Assembly: GCA_012516065.1 (NCBI GenBank)
Contig: JAAYXD010000014.1
Span: 1-39,296, forward strand
Reading direction: 5' to 3'
Source: Clostridiaceae bacterium
GTDB lineage: Bacteria; Bacillota; Clostridia; DSM-8532
Length of the DNA stretch: 39,296 bases
Shown here: positions 21,584 through 28,266 of the stretch, in pieces
Layout of the letters: every line of letters begins with the position of its first letter
Position numbering within the stretch: position 1 is the first letter of the stretch
The notes under the pieces: generated by a model
What the model saw: the letters and a program-made list of their open reading frames with translations, nothing else
Told to the model about the DNA's origin: nothing
The model's database searches: none
Position numbers and translations under genes: made by a program

Positions 21584-22747
21584 TCAATTATCCGGGAAAT
21601 CGCCCTGACCGGTCAGGAAATCGTGTGATTCCTTAAGTTTTTGTATTATCGGTATATTCTGAGGACATGCGCTTTCGCACTGCCCGCATTCGACGCATTT
21701 TGACGCGTCACGCCCTTCGTTTATGAAAAATTGCCTGTAATGGTTTTGCGAATCTCTCCTGCTCGAATACATAAAAGCGGAATTAACGTGATCAAAAACA
21801 CCCGGTATTGAAACGCCCTGCGGGCACGGCAGGCAGTATTCACACCCGGTGCAGGGTATTTTTATCTTTTTCAGGTACGCCTGTCTTACCTGTTCGATTA
21901 TTGCCAGTTCTTCCTCATCCATGCAGTTTGCCTTCGCGTTCTCAAATATGCGCAGGTTGTCCTCTAATTGTTCCATTGAGCTGACACCGCTTAATATAAC
22001 GGCAACCTGCGGGAAATTGTACAGCCACCGGAAAGCCCATTCGACCGGGGTTCTTTTAGTCTTTGCATTTTCGTATATCCGCTTTACTTCATCGGGAATA
22101 TTATTTGCGAGTTTTCCTCCCTTCAGCGGTTCCATTATAACCACCGGGATATTTTTATCTCCCGCGTATTTTAAGCCTTCGACGGTAGCCTGTTCGTCTC
22201 TGTCCATTATATTCATCTGTATCTGGCACATATCCCAGTCATATGCGTCGATAATTTCTTTAAAGGTTTTATAACCGTCATGGAATGAAAAGCATATGTA
22301 CTTGATTTTCCCGCTCGTTTTTGCCTTTTCCATGAAATCGAGAACATCGAGCTTCATAAGGGAATCCCATCTGCTTTTGTTCAATGCGTGCAACAGGTAA
22401 AAATCGATACAGTCCGTTTGCAGTTTTTTTAGCTGTTCGTCAAGAAAACGTTCCATATCGTCATACTTTTTAACATTCCAGACAGGTAACTTCGTCGCAA
22501 GGTATGTCCTCTCACGGTAACCGTCTTTCAACGCTTTCCCGACTATCAGCTCGCTTTCGCCGTTATGGTATGGGTAGGCGGTGTCGATATAGTTCACGCC
22601 GTGATCAATGCCGTACCGGATCATTTGAATTGATTTTTCCACATCAACAACGGTTCCGTTGTCCGTTTGAACCATGGGAAGGCGCATACAGCCGATACCG
22701 AATAAAGATACGGGTTTATCGAATTTGCTGAATTTCCGATATTCCAT
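21584..22747 (-). CDS. Aldo/keto reductase with C-terminal ferredoxin-type [4Fe-4S] domain
   Basis: This is a 387-aa cytoplasmic enzyme. An AKR barrel (residues 1-290) carries the catalytic set Asp-Tyr (DTAYPYHNGESE), Lys (ATKLP) and His (LLHAL). The C-terminal region (about 300-375) has two cysteine clusters, CTGCEYCLPCPQG and CVECGQCESACPQN, which should each hold a [4Fe-4S] centre. This AKR-ferredoxin fusion is common in anaerobes; the substrate is unknown. AGGAGG lies 6-7 bp before the ATG. Monocistronic as far as can be seen. Confidence 0.92.
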   Translation of the reverse strand: MEYRKFSKFDKPVSLFGIGCMRLPMVQTDNGTVVDVEKSIQMIRYGIDHGVNYIDTAYPYHNGESELIVGKALKDGYRERTYLATKLPVWNVKKYDDMERFLDEQLKKLQTDCIDFYLLHALNKSRWDSLMKLDVLDFMEKAKTSGKIKYICFSFHDGYKTFKEIIDAYDWDMCQIQMNIMDRDEQATVEGLKYAGDKNIPVVIMEPLKGGKLANNIPDEVKRIYENAKTKRTPVEWAFRWLYNFPQVAVILSGVSSMEQLEDNLRIFENAKANCMDEEELAIIEQVRQAYLKKIKIPCTGCEYCLPCPQGVSIPGVFDHVNSAFMYSSRRDSQNHYRQFFINEGRDASKCVECGQCESACPQNIPIIQKLKESHDFLTGQGDFPDN

Positions 22748-22900
22748 TTGCTAACCTCCTGGGTGATTTTAGTTACATCTCAGTATACCATGTACCGGCA
22801 CAAATTTTAAAGTCCTTTATAATAAATTATAAATTAAAACGGAATATCCGTTTATATCCGGATGCGCCTTATGAACAAATATGATGTTCTGCCCGTTATT

Positions 22901-23230
22901 ACCGAAAGCACCCAAGCCAGAGTCGTGTACCAACCGGAACGCGACAGCAATGCCTCGACCTGTTAACCACCCGCTGAGTTATTGCATTATTTCCGCGGGT
23001 CCTGGCCCGGGTGTTTCGTTTCCTCGGGCTACAAAGCACATACCAATAACACGCTTCCGATCCTGTACTGTTTTCACACAGCGGTCTCCATATCCCGGGT
23101 CGCTCATTAACCCGCTCCACAGTTGCCGGTACACAGCATGGCGCTGAAGCATGTCGCCCATCGTCACCGAAAGCACCCGAGCCACCCGCTGAGTTATTGC
23201 ATTATTTCCGCGGGTCCTGGCCCGGGTGTT
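22901..23230. repeat. Structured non-coding region with a 49-bp direct repeat
   Basis: A 49-bp sequence at 22967-23015 recurs at 23182-23230, 215 bp apart, with no mismatch seen by eye. Its ends carry CACCCG and CGGGTG, so each copy can fold back. A 19-bp box (22901-22919) recurs at 23166-23184 with one mismatch. In the second copy the box runs straight into the 49-bp unit; in the first, 47 bp lie between them. Short hairpin-forming pairs fill the 166 bp between copies. Reading frames here are poor and overlap each other, so no gene is called. It may be a structured RNA or a decayed element; identity unknown. Confidence 0.75.
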
Positions 23231-23264
23231 CCGTTTTTTCGTAAGATAAATTTTAATATAACAA

Positions 23265-23317
23265 TTGCATATTTATTTGATATGTGCTATTATTACATAA
23301 AAGTAAACAGAGGTTTA
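23265..23317 (+). promoter_or_regulatory. tetR promoter and operator 1
   Basis: TTGCAT (23265-23270) and TATTAT (23288-23293, with TGC in front) are 17 bp apart. The palindrome TAAAC-N4-GTTTA (23304-23317) covers the expected start of transcription and lies just before the regulator's ATG. The same palindrome occurs before the RND operon. Confidence 0.75.
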
Positions 23318-23322
23318 TTATT

Positions 23323-23925
23323 ATGCAGGTATTAAAAGAGGAAGTAAGGCAAAATATCCTATCCTCGGCCAAGAAGCTGTTTTATGAAAAAGGATACTCG
23401 AATGCCACCATTCGCGACATTGCGAAGCTTTCGGGAATAACGGTCGGGAATGTGTACAGGTATTTTAAAAACAAGGAAAACGTATTGGAGGGGATCGTAG
23501 AGCCCGTTCATAAAAAGATACTTGATATCCTGTCCTTTTTTGAAAAATTGGTTGAGGAAGGGACAAATAAGTCCTTTACGGATTTCAGAAACGTAATAAA
23601 CGAGTTTATTATCAATATATCGAAAGAATACCGCCTGGAACTGTTGATATTGTGTACGAGAACACGCGGGACAAAATACGAATCAATACGCGACGATTTA
23701 GTGTCGCTTATTGAAAGCAGGATACGCCAGGGGTTGTTCCGAAAGAGCACGCTTGATAATAAAGAAGCTGATTTTCTTTCAAAGATAGTGGCTCATGCGT
23801 TCCTGGACAGCCTGCTGATGATTATTTCCGGAAAATATGAGAACGATGAATTGGAAAAAATGATATACATACTTAACGATTTTTATTTTAATCATGTTGA
23901 AGAGAGGTTTGAATCAGGTAAATAA
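23323..23925 (+). CDS. TetR-family transcriptional repressor
   Basis: This 200-aa protein has an N-terminal TetR helix-turn-helix (about residues 8-54; ATIRDIAKLSGITVGNVYRYF) followed by a helical ligand-binding domain. ATG 23323 is used: AGAGG lies 9 bp upstream. An open frame reaches back to 23284, but that would run through the promoter. It probably represses itself and the RND operon that starts 68 bp downstream, because identical palindromes precede both. The ligand is likely a toxic compound exported by the pump (inference). Confidence 0.92.
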   Translation: MQVLKEEVRQNILSSAKKLFYEKGYSNATIRDIAKLSGITVGNVYRYFKNKENVLEGIVEPVHKKILDILSFFEKLVEEGTNKSFTDFRNVINEFIINISKEYRLELLILCTRTRGTKYESIRDDLVSLIESRIRQGLFRKSTLDNKEADFLSKIVAHAFLDSLLMIISGKYENDELEKMIYILNDFYFNHVEERFESGK

Positions 23926-23945
23926 TATTTTTTTTACCGCAAAAG

Positions 23946-23972
23946 TAAACATTTGTTTATTTATGATATATT
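23946..23972 (+). promoter_or_regulatory. Operator 2 and promoter of the RND operon
   Basis: TAAAC-ATTT-GTTTA (23946-23959), preceded by AAAAG, matches the tetR operator in both arms and left flank. TATATT (23967-23972) is a likely -10, which would place the palindrome in the -35/-10 region. No good -35 is seen. Confidence 0.7.
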
Positions 23973-25194: not shown

Positions 25195-28100
25195 ATGGTC
25201 AGACTTATTGAAGCTACAATCCGCAACCGCAGGATTACGCTCTTTGCGATTATTTTGGCTTTCATTTTCGGGATTTACAGCTATTATGTGATGCCAAAGC
25301 AGGAAACACCCGATATAAGCGTAACGGTGGCGCTTATAACTACGGTATATCCGGGTGCGTCCGCACAGGATGTTGAAAGCCTTGTAACGCGTAAAATAGA
25401 AGATAAGGTTACCGAAGTTGAAGGATTCTGGAAAGTCAGTTCAAGCTCCCGGAATAATCTGTCCGTGGTGCTGCTGGAATTGGAAACGGGAACTGATGTT
25501 GACAAGGCATGGAACCAGCTGAGGCAAAAAATGGACGAACTGCAGAGCGATCTGCCCGAAGAATGTGAAGAAATTGATATAAATACCGATTTATACAAAA
25601 CTGCAGGAATGATATTAAGTTTTTCCGGCAAAGGCTATTCATATGAAGAACTGGCTGATTATGCCGAAGAACTGAAGGATGAGCTGATCGGAATCGACGG
25701 GGTTTCGAGAATAGATATATCCGGAAAACAGGAAATGGAGATCTGCGTGGAGGTTGATACGGTACAGCTTAACAGGCTCCCTTTATCGCTTGAAGATGTA
25801 ACAAACATAATAAAAGCCCAGGGAGTAGAAATTCCTGTCGGAACGCTTGACAGCGAAAACGGAAAACTCACGGTTAAGACGCAAAGCAGCTATAAAACAA
25901 TATGGGATATAGAAAACATTATTCTGCTTACATCCGAGGAGACCGGAAGCGTTGTGCGCCTGAAGGATATTGCCGATGTATATTACCGGCTGCAGGATTC
26001 AAGCAATATAATAAAGCGGAATGATCAAAACGCGGTTTTATTAACAGGTTATTTCAAGGAAAACCGTAATATTATACATATTGGCAGGGAGCTTGACAAA
26101 AAGATTGAAAGTTTTAAAAAAAGACTGCCCGAGGATGTTGCCCTCGATAAAATTCTCTACCAGCCAGGTGATGTTGGTAAAGCCGTAAATGAGTTCGTAA
26201 TAAACCTTCTCGAAGGGATTCTGTTTGTAATCGCTGTTGTTTTTATTGGTATGGGCATTCGAAATGCCGTCATAGTATCGACTTCGATTCCGCTGTCCAT
26301 TCTTCTTACATTAATAGGAATGCGCGTGCTGAACATATATATCCACCAGATTTCGATTGCGGCTTTAATAATTGCTTTGGGTATGCTTGTCGACAACGCG
26401 GTTGTTGTAAGTGACGCGATCCAGGTAAGGATAGACAGCGGCCAGGAAAAACTGCGCGCCTGTGTGGAAGGTGCGAGGGAGGTTGCAATTCCGGTCCTGG
26501 CATCGACGCTGACCACGGTAGGGGCATTTATACCTCTTTTGCTGCTTCCGGGTATGGCAGGGGAATTTGTCCGCAGTATTCCGCAGATAATTATTATATC
26601 GCTGTCGGCTTCATACATTGTAGCGATCTTTGTTTCGCCTGTCCTGGCATATATCTTTTTCAAACCTTCAAAGCATGCACAGAGGAAGCATAGGATACGG
26701 GCGTTTTTCGGAACACTTTTGAAGATGGCGCTGAAAAGGAAAAAACTGACGATTGCCGCACTGCTGCCTGTAATAGCTCTCTGCGTGTGGATGACAAGCC
26801 TGTTATACCTGCAGTTTTTTCCAAGGGCCGATATAAATATGATTATAATCGATATTGAACATGAATATGCGAATGATATTGCCCAGACCGAAATACTCGC
26901 GAACCAGGTTACCGATATCTTAAAGCGGCAGGAAGAGGTAACGGGATATACGGTATCGGTAGGAGAAGGCCTGCCAAAGCTGTATTACTCGATGGCGCCG
27001 CCGTCAAAAGCTCAAAACTATGCACAGGTTATGTTTACCGTCGATTTGAAGAAAACAAACCGGTTTAAAAATAACGAAGAGTTCTCAAACTATCTGCAGG
27101 ATATTATTGACGGTGAAATCGCGCAGGGTACGGCTGCGGTGAAACTTCTCGAGCAGGGAGAACCGATAGGCGCTCCTGTCCGGCTGAGGGTAGTCGGCAA
27201 GCGTGATTTAACCGCCCAGGCTTCGGAGCGTATTATGGATGTGCTGAAAACAATACCCGGAGCGTATAATGTCAGGGATAATTACGTGGACGATTCATAC
27301 AGCTTTACACTCGACATTAATGCCGACGAAGCGCTGCGCCTCGGCGTTACGCAGTATGATGTCCAAAAAGAGTTCAATATAGCGCTTATGGGCGCGAAAG
27401 CAGGATATTTGAATGAGAGTGAACGTGATGGTAACAAGAGTACACAAATCCCGATACGCGTTGTGTCCGATATAAAAAAGCCGGATGATATGGGCCTGTT
27501 TGCGGTAAAATCTTCCGCCACCGGAAGAAAGGTATTGCTCGGACAAATAGCCGATATCGGTATTGAGTCAGGGATTTCGAACATCCAGAAATACAACAGG
27601 GTTAATTCAATAACAATTTACGCGGACGTACGGCAGGGATTCAGTTCGACGGACATTCAAAAACAACTTGAAAATAGGCTGAAAGAAATTGATCTTGGTG
27701 ATGTTGAAGTTGTTTTTGACGGGGAGCGCGAATCAATTATAAAGTATTTCGGAGATATAGGAATCCTGGCCATATTTGCCGTATTTGTAGTTTATTTGAT
27801 TCTTCTGATCCAATTCCGCTCGTTTGCGCAGCCCTTTATCGTAATGGCGACAATACCGCTGTCGCTTATAGGTTCCGTTATCGGCCTGTATTTGTTCCGC
27901 CAGCCGCTGTCGTTTACATCGCTGTTCGGAGTTGTCAGCCTGTTCGGGATTGTTGTTAACAATGCGATCGTCCTGGTGGACTTTATCAATTCTAAAAAGG
28001 CTGAAGGGGTTACCGCGGAAGAAGCCTGTATTGATTCGGTCGAAAAACGCTTCAGGCCGGTAATGCTTACAACAATAACAACGGTTGTAGGGCTTATTCC

Positions 28101-28266
28101 ATTGATTTTTTCAGACAGCAACCTGTTCAGGCCGATGTCGATATCCCTTGCTTCAGGACTGTCATTATCCACATTTTTAACCCTGATTATAATACCCGTC
28201 GTATACGCGATTGTGGATCGGGGGAAAGAAATTGTTGCTGTTCAAACGAACAATAATAACGGTTAA
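25195..28266 (+). CDS. RND-family efflux permease (AcrB/HAE type)
   Basis: This 1023-aa permease has the two-fold RND layout: segment 1 near residue 15, a large external loop, segments 2-6 (about 330-475), segment 7 near 515, a second loop, and segments 8-12 (about 850-1010). The proton-relay Asp is in GMLVDNAVVVSDAI (segment 4); the next residue is Asn, not the second Asp of AcrB. The segment-10 motif GIVVNNAIVLVDF is present. The ribosome site GGAGTGA overlaps the adaptor stop. The substrate is unknown; TetR control points to drugs or amphiphiles. No outer-membrane channel gene is nearby. Confidence 0.94.
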   Translation: MVRLIEATIRNRRITLFAIILAFIFGIYSYYVMPKQETPDISVTVALITTVYPGASAQDVESLVTRKIEDKVTEVEGFWKVSSSSRNNLSVVLLELETGTDVDKAWNQLRQKMDELQSDLPEECEEIDINTDLYKTAGMILSFSGKGYSYEELADYAEELKDELIGIDGVSRIDISGKQEMEICVEVDTVQLNRLPLSLEDVTNIIKAQGVEIPVGTLDSENGKLTVKTQSSYKTIWDIENIILLTSEETGSVVRLKDIADVYYRLQDSSNIIKRNDQNAVLLTGYFKENRNIIHIGRELDKKIESFKKRLPEDVALDKILYQPGDVGKAVNEFVINLLEGILFVIAVVFIGMGIRNAVIVSTSIPLSILLTLIGMRVLNIYIHQISIAALIIALGMLVDNAVVVSDAIQVRIDSGQEKLRACVEGAREVAIPVLASTLTTVGAFIPLLLLPGMAGEFVRSIPQIIIISLSASYIVAIFVSPVLAYIFFKPSKHAQRKHRIRAFFGTLLKMALKRKKLTIAALLPVIALCVWMTSLLYLQFFPRADINMIIIDIEHEYANDIAQTEILANQVTDILKRQEEVTGYTVSVGEGLPKLYYSMAPPSKAQNYAQVMFTVDLKKTNRFKNNEEFSNYLQDIIDGEIAQGTAAVKLLEQGEPIGAPVRLRVVGKRDLTAQASERIMDVLKTIPGAYNVRDNYVDDSYSFTLDINADEALRLGVTQYDVQKEFNIALMGAKAGYLNESERDGNKSTQIPIRVVSDIKKPDDMGLFAVKSSATGRKVLLGQIADIGIESGISNIQKYNRVNSITIYADVRQGFSSTDIQKQLENRLKEIDLGDVEVVFDGERESIIKYFGDIGILAIFAVFVVYLILLIQFRSFAQPFIVMATIPLSLIGSVIGLYLFRQPLSFTSLFGVVSLFGIVVNNAIVLVDFINSKKAEGVTAEEACIDSVEKRFRPVMLTTITTVVGLIPLIFSDSNLFRPMSISLASGLSLSTFLTLIIIPVVYAIVDRGKEIVAVQTNNNNG

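Follow-up and report, generated by a model that had tools for sequence, protein, structure and literature searches.

The spacer between an aldo/keto reductase gene and a divergent tetR gene in the window, by which we mean the whole stretch of 39,296 nucleotides from a Clostridiaceae bacterium analysed here, raises the question of what a compact block of repeated, hairpin-capable DNA represents at this place. The initial annotation had described a 49-bp direct repeat and a 19-bp box that both occur twice, a 47-bp spacer that separates box and unit in one copy only, an elevated G+C content, hairpin-capable pairs and the lack of a credible gene, and our analyses confirmed each of these points. 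The 49-bp repeat is exact (22967-23015 and 23182-23230) and extends to a 60-nt pair of 95% identity with a start-to-start spacing of 215; the two boxes (22901-22919 and 23166-23184) show a single difference (A/G) and extend to a 29-nt pair of 83% identity. The second box overlaps its 49-bp unit by 3 bp, and the spacer lies at 22920-22966 between the first box and its unit. The true extent of the element is about 22885 to 23241, slightly past the ends first assigned to it (22901-23230). The G+C content is 56.7% in 22901-23230 versus 45.4% in the whole window, and the intergenic flanks have 33.1% (22748-22880) and 17.3% (23242-23322). The stretch 22990-23192 folds more strongly than shuffled sequences on either strand, with z about -2.6 (+ strand as RNA: z -2.62, 1 of 200 shuffles as good; - strand as DNA: z -2.57, 3 of 200 shuffles as good). 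The sole ORF of at least 80 aa over the element (22881-23147, 88 aa) has no Pfam hit, on which ground a protein-coding reading was rejected, and aligned copies of the element carry indels that are not multiples of three, as judged by eye. From left to right, the site consists of a truncated core end, box A, module S, a loop, B, a core, A, a loop, and B (Table 1).

Table 1. Parts of the repeat element and neighbouring features, in window coordinates.
Feature	Position	Strand	Evidence or remark
Left neighbour, divergent: aldo/keto reductase with 4Fe-4S domain	21584-22747	-	Pfam
Leftover 3' end of another, truncated core on the left side	22885-22900	+	Resembles module C2 (by eye); repeat pair D2 (29 nt) begins at 22891
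Box A, 5' arm of hairpin 1	22901-22919	+	Repeat pair, module maps
Optional 47-bp module S, an extension of the hairpin 1 5' arm that forms a small hairpin of its own (by eye)	22920-22966	+	Module maps
Base of the stem, loop (about 22975-22991) and B, the 3' arm of hairpin 1, which doubles as the core's left arm	22967-23018	+	
Complete core, model positions 1-200	22992-23191	+	Covariance model match, E 4.5e-59, 227.7 bits
Left outer arm of core	22995-23018	+	Pairs with 23168-23189, covariation; coordinates by eye
Left inner arm of core (helix 3)	23026-23033	+	Pairs with 23152-23159; G-C 52 / A-T 8 at one pair; coordinates by eye
Strongly conserved core block, source of the 24-base search pattern	23083-23106	+	Core alignment
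Right inner arm of core	23152-23159	+	Covariation
Hairpin 2 (box A, loop, B), lacking module S; its loop matches the hairpin 1 loop exactly	23166-23241	+	
Right outer arm of core, overlaps second box A	23168-23189	+	Covariation
Possible tetR promoter (TTGCAT, 17 nt, TATTAT), between element and gene	23265-23293	+	By eye
Right neighbour: TetR-family regulator	23323-23925	+	Pfam
AcrB-type efflux gene, after tetR	25195-28266		Pfam

No Pfam or Rfam family matches the element. The Rfam covariance search, proposed as a check for a known element, gave no match at the gathering threshold in the window, and a search of 541 bases with E values up to 10 returned four chance-level matches, the best with E 5.1. 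The suggested decayed intron end does not hold on present evidence, as the only traces of reverse transcriptase in the incomplete assemblies were two pieces of 46 aa that contain a stop, both from the window's own genome (G000); two other genomes of the genus (G015 and G016) had none. A group II intron or another element borne by reverse transcriptase was rejected, as there is no Rfam intron match and no intact reverse transcriptase in G000, and so was a CRISPR array, since the units measure about 215-265 bp and the intervening sequence is repeated, not unique.

The answer came from the BLASTN comparison that the initial annotation had proposed: the repeat is not unique, and copies lie elsewhere in its own genome and in related genomes. 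In G000 (3.07 Mb, 328 contigs), at least 70 BLAST pieces match 22860-23260, the window site included, with 40 of 85 first-look candidates scored, so that the count may be low; this number excludes chance. A covariance model was built from 63 of 73 complete cores, the other ten having been left out before alignment because their right end runs into S or is altered. With the best 75 of 277-1006 candidates scored per genome, so that counts may be low, the model matched at least 46 times in G000, 60 times in G015 and 49 times in G016, and outside the genus at least 21 times in G025, five times in G018 and three times each in G017 and G014. The core repeat was thus found in 7 of 33 genomes of the order, and among the best 75 of 277-1006 candidates in each of the other 26 there was no match at E 0.001. 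Three of the four genomes in the genus of G025, the single-contig G026 among them, are without the core repeat. An exact search with the 24-base pattern, possibly not covering the own genome, found 45 stretches, all in four metagenome-assembled Clostridia (DTU069, AS06rmzACSIP_332, AS09scLD_248 and AS20ysBPTH_8); the genome names DTU069 and AS20ysBPTH occur in two biogas-metagenome papers (PMC4736482, PMC7038595). The same exact pattern had no match in the viral contigs of IMG/VR, and blastn had none in PLSDB plasmids and GenBank phages. In the portions of the literature that our search on similar small repeats covered, no description of this family was found. The 330-bp stretch is therefore one copy of a dispersed, non-coding, fold-back repeat family of a few uncultured clostridia.

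In module maps of the fetched loci, two units alternate, a hairpin of about 60 bp and a core of about 200 bp. The hairpin consists of box A, a loop of about 17-20 bases, and B, which is complementary to A, and the core begins with B of one hairpin and ends with A of the following one. The core ends pair around a conserved middle, parts of which are conserved between genera. The family grows and shrinks in tandem by these modules: the arrangements include A-B, A-S-B, A-B-C-A-B and longer arrays, coreless hairpins at L041 and L049, and up to three tandem cores at L006. The 47-bp spacer corresponds to module S, an optional arm extension that occurs in many copies, with + orientation where it follows A and - orientation where it lies within B, as judged at loci fetched for carrying the element; both orientations are expected if hairpins invert. 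Of the proposed tandem duplication with a deletion scar, the duplication therefore stands, as the hairpin-core unit is duplicated in tandem as a modular repeat. The scar does not, since S is optional throughout the family and was not simply lost from one copy by deletion. Loops within a locus are only modestly more alike (mean identity 0.74) than loops between loci (0.61; 14 cores).

The core arms form 28 pairs in three helices, and pairing is kept in 93.5% of 1758 cells of the 63-sequence alignment. Changes on both sides of a pair were seen in 53 cells, compared with a shuffled mean of 16.4 and with 3-23 in slid controls, where the shuffles do not control for the relatedness of the copies; the observed nine pairs changed on both sides were reached by 3 of 500 shuffles, and the observed number of pair types by 75 of 500. 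The strongest covarying pair is T-A in 31 and C-G in 25 of the 63 sequences. Pairing inside the helices is not uniform, as columns 15-199 are unpaired in 33 sequences, and 38-175 and 39-174 in 13 and 17. Covariation of this kind would be compatible with arms that pair in an RNA and with arms that fold back in DNA.

Sites common to two species gave the most direct view of how the family changes. A comparison of flanks identified ten sites at which G000 and G015 each have a core; at seven of these the flank alignments end at most 8 bases from the G000 element on both sides, and at L017, L028 and L029 they end at most 45 bases from it. These ten were drawn from loci selected because the element is present there, and the share of sites in common is therefore biased upward; at L138, the closer of two G015 cores was taken for the ten-site comparison. 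The core has the same orientation at six sites (L003, L005, L007, L022, L026 and L038) and the opposite one at four, by BLAST at L017/L066, L020/L155 and L029/L070, and from strands and sequence at L028/L159. Positional partners are clearly orthologous at L026 (core identity 0.979) and L007 (0.944); L007/L102 has two cores in G000 and one in G015, and the second G000 core is also closest to this same G015 core (0.877, rank 1 of 35). At the other eight sites, partner identity is 0.785-0.841, and the mean of 0.8130 compares with 0.8135 for shuffled partners, 58% of 10000 shuffles being at least as high. The same cores have within-species identities of 0.839 in G000 and 0.875 in G015. At these eight sites, core identity by position has thus been lost, while cores within a species resemble each other. 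Similarly, the partners of L015 and L029 in G016 rank only 7 and 10 of 16, and a tree of 93 cores, from which 15 of 108 hits had been left out as shorter, groups mostly by species. The nearest neighbour comes from the same genome for 24 of 32 cores in G000, 28 of 35 in G015 and 13 of 16 in G016, counts that retain two G000 arrays fetched under several locus ids, which may add a few.

Loss of cores was seen where sites were searched directly. None of three G000 sites (the window, L018 and L013) has a full core in G015: the L018 site (C70) shows a hairpin with S and no core, the L013 site (C27) combines a hairpin carrying S with a scrap of a B end and with a second repeat, one of about 222 bp, and the window's own site has a core remnant of about 40 bases beside a DUF421 gene. 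In G016, the window's site has no element, and it offers no clean insertion comparison with either relative. Conversely, L044 in G000, the counterpart of L076 in G015, has A, S and a diverged piece of B without a core, and opposite the array of three cores at L006, G016 has only 164 bp that resemble the element. The site of L099 in G015 has its flanks on different contigs in G000, and only one flank was found in G016. At L034 of G025, the element is absent from the same site in G023 and G026, as read by eye from BLAST coordinates, the multiple alignment being poor. The suggestion of a mobile element is thereby borne out in kind, as the repeat is dispersed and one G025 site is free of it in two other species of the G025 genus. 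The opposite orientations, the partners that are no closer to each other than to cores elsewhere and the missing full cores at common sites indicate that cores are lost, swapped and flipped, and homogenised within species.

The element is dispersed mostly in intergenic spacers, with placements at L006, L060 and L073 overlapping long ORFs. Among 82 placements with both neighbours called, the spacers were co-directional in 51, divergent in 27 and convergent in 4, compared with 55, 19 and 6 of 80 spacers without the element, and an avoidance of convergent spacers (4 of 82 versus 6 of 80) was therefore dropped. In the co-directional spacers, 37 cores run along the two genes and 14 run against them, counts that include orthologous sites and are not independent; removal of one double-counted array gives 36:14 (binomial p 0.0026). 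G016 alone, with 0 sense and 3 antisense cores, runs contrary to the overall ratio. If the downstream gene alone is considered, core and gene share their direction in 71 of the 92 placements where such a gene was called. A replication-strand cause of this bias was not supported: at 12 divergent loci with sufficient flanking sequence, the local coding strand and the G-C skew agree with the core in 7 each, and replication direction thus does not explain the bias in this small sample. Promoter-like sites were found between element and gene at 29 of 65 loci versus 3 of 65 on the opposite strand. The scan covered co-directional downstream genes at 70-520 bp and took sites matched by at most 10% of 60 Markov-randomised sequences, and the 65 loci include a few sites fetched twice as well as orthologous ones. 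The element therefore often lies upstream of the promoter and outside the leader. At the window, the scan listed no significant site (p 0.65) and did not pick the candidate tetR promoter at 23265-23293, because it stopped at an ORF start further upstream (23284). Of 64 listed downstream proteins, 30 were scanned, and the 28 with Pfam hits belong to unrelated families; a riboswitch-like regulon was rejected, as the 30 have no common theme.

The window probably carries a site of a non-autonomous, MITE-like mosaic repeat family, in which palindromic hairpins alternate with a core of about 200 bp that has long imperfect terminal arms, and which is reshuffled by recombination through these hairpins. 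As expected of a MITE, the element is short, has terminal inverted repeats and no coding capacity, and occurs in multiple dispersed copies with insertion polymorphism, one site being without it in two related genomes. No target-site duplication was seen by eye in the flanks, among which there is no clean single-element empty site, and no transposase between element-like ends was noticed in the module maps of the fetched loci, whose neighbouring genes are partly identified. Y1 transposase (PF01797) had no match in G000 and G016 and one in G015, and serine recombinase had none in G016, G017 and G025, all incomplete assemblies; Y1 transposase, reverse transcriptase and serine recombinase were rejected as mobilisers, as none is common to all seven carriers. 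Since the hairpins are near-palindromes, any pair of them that brackets a core is both a direct and an inverted repeat. If the flanking hairpins recombined with each other, the core would be deleted, leaving a lone hairpin, or be duplicated or inverted, and recombination between sites would exchange cores. The near-palindromy of the hairpins alone would thus explain why some hairpins stand without a core, why tandem arrays form, why cores flip and why they are alike within a species. The first spread presumably occurred via a transposase acting in trans. By default, we regard the element as selfish or neutral DNA that, often lying upstream of promoters, may modulate them. Besides the negative results on target-site duplication and transposase, two observations count against this picture: the core middle is partly conserved between genera, where a decaying MITE is expected to drift, and the 37:14 orientation of cores along genes is not predicted by simple neutrality.

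Independent insertion at the same sites in each species, by a mobile element that targets its own copies, is the alternative to an exchange between resident copies. We consider such re-insertion into resident hairpins unlikely, and yet a serious rival to recombination. It agrees with the clustering of cores by species rather than by site, with tandem arrays that suggest resident hairpins as targets, with the second repeat of about 222 bp that is also found in the hairpin loop at many sites, and with sites at which one species has a full core and the other a hairpin that lacks it. However, the outer edges and, by eye, some unusual letters of the outer arms are common to the species, so that the sites themselves look inherited, and two sites keep clearly orthologous cores. 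In a further reading, the hairpins would act as exchange sites of a genome-wide cassette system, in which cores are continually excised, inverted and swapped between fixed sites upstream of promoters by a dedicated recombinase or via single-strand hairpins, with promoters retuned by core orientation. We hold this to be improbable; if it were true, each species would carry its own homogenised set of cores at inherited addresses.

The orientation data bear on two further readings. The core could be transcribed as a structured RNA, with the paired arms as closing stem and the conserved middle as a binding or catalytic part, and the family would then comprise multicopy small RNAs or leaders. The compensatory changes in the arms, the middle common to genera and the co-directionality with the downstream gene are in favour of an RNA, and the initial annotation had listed this option. 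What remains of it is the covariation of the arms, which is set against arm mismatches of 21 G/T versus 36 A/C that do not favour the + strand and so do not single it out as an RNA, promoter-like sites that often lie between element and gene, the lack of an Rfam match and of a theme common to the scanned downstream proteins, cores inverted at sites common to species, and a patchy occurrence among species of one genus. An RNA family thus appears doubtful at best. Inverted arms, opposite core orientations at four of ten common sites, module S in both orientations and positions upstream of promoter-like sites would also be compatible with an invertible switch, in which the arms are recombinase sites and the core is flipped in front of promoters, in the manner of phase-variable promoters. 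Flips between species need not be frequent within a population, though, and serine recombinase is not common to the carriers, with no match in G016, G017 or G025, which makes a switch very improbable. We therefore favour the recombining, MITE-like mosaic.

Most descriptions of small palindromic repeats concern a few well-studied bacteria. ERIC (IRU) elements from enterobacteria, another phylum, are 127 bp long and intergenic and form an imperfect palindrome over their whole length with a conserved centre; to our knowledge, they have no alternating second hairpin module. The clostridial family is likewise palindromic and mostly intergenic, with a conserved centre and many copies, and differs by exactly such a module. 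ERIC copies number tens to hundreds (PMC10969869). Correia elements (CREE/NEMIS) of Neisseria (PMC2649163, PMC2229807, PMC10969869) are non-coding and about 100-160 bp long, with inverted-repeat ends around a conserved core, an optional internal piece of about 50 bp, a location often 5' of genes and no encoded mobiliser; 120 of 123 positions are common to two gonococcal strains, and inversion has been reported. The inverted ends, the conserved core, the optional piece of about 50 bp and the frequent location 5' of genes recur in the clostridial family. This family differs in its longer, G+C-rich arms, in the separate hairpin module between cores and in its tandem arrays; we also saw no target-site duplication, in contrast to CREE, which duplicates its target (PMC2649163). 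BOX elements of Streptococcus pneumoniae, also a Firmicute, consist of boxA, tandem boxB and boxC, with a length that varies by module number and predicted stem-loop folding (PMC3049150). The clostridial family is equally composite, modular and variable in length, but its modules are others: its unit is hairpin-core, and its arrays end in hairpins or truncations of the same modules. Like the REP/BIME repeats, which are palindrome mosaics in arrays (PMC2817692), the clostridial copies form such mosaics, but with units far longer than the 20-40 bp of REPs (PMC3733652), and, unlike REP/RAYT systems with their Y1 transposases, without a Y1 transposase match in the own genome. Since its architecture and habits resemble those of Correia and BOX elements, we would file it as a new family within the class of small repeats to which BOX, Correia and ERIC belong, a comparison by architecture only and from descriptions.

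The most interesting trait of the family is its swap-and-flip behaviour at inherited sites. An uncultured clostridial genus offers a case in which the addresses of a repeat are inherited while their contents turn over and flip, and the question of how repeats without an enzyme of their own stay alike within a genome can thereby be tested on three or more related species. Should the repeats act on neighbouring promoters, they would be a source of heritable expression differences between species.

Other repeats and genes accompany the family. The second dispersed repeat of about 222 bp has palindromic ends of the GAACTATTGTACAATAG type, as at L003:1798-2040 (G000:C181:2468-2710), and sits in the hairpin loop of the core family at many sites; its end motif is absent from the window. 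It has 26, 50 and 44 matching pieces in G000, G015 and G016, and is probably younger, because the long pieces are mostly 88-94% identical to the query. G023, which has no core repeat, contains about 30 matches to a relative of this repeat, and two G023 stretches (L190 and L191) are arrays with GATATCGTGCAATGC-like ends. A third repeat, of the GGGGGACGGTTC type, flanks the window's counterpart site in relatives, and its motif GGGGACGGTTC is absent from the window. At that counterpart site in G016 (L148, C83), a DUF421/YetF gene lies between the aldo/keto reductase gene and tetR, and in G015 (L149, C97; L150, C85) it adjoins the aldo/keto reductase gene at the end of the contig; in the window, a gene of this type is absent from that place. 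Finally, similar AAAAGTAAACA...GTTTAT motifs precede tetR (23299-23320) and the genes that follow tetR (23941-23962), as seen by eye, and are likely a pair of TetR operators.
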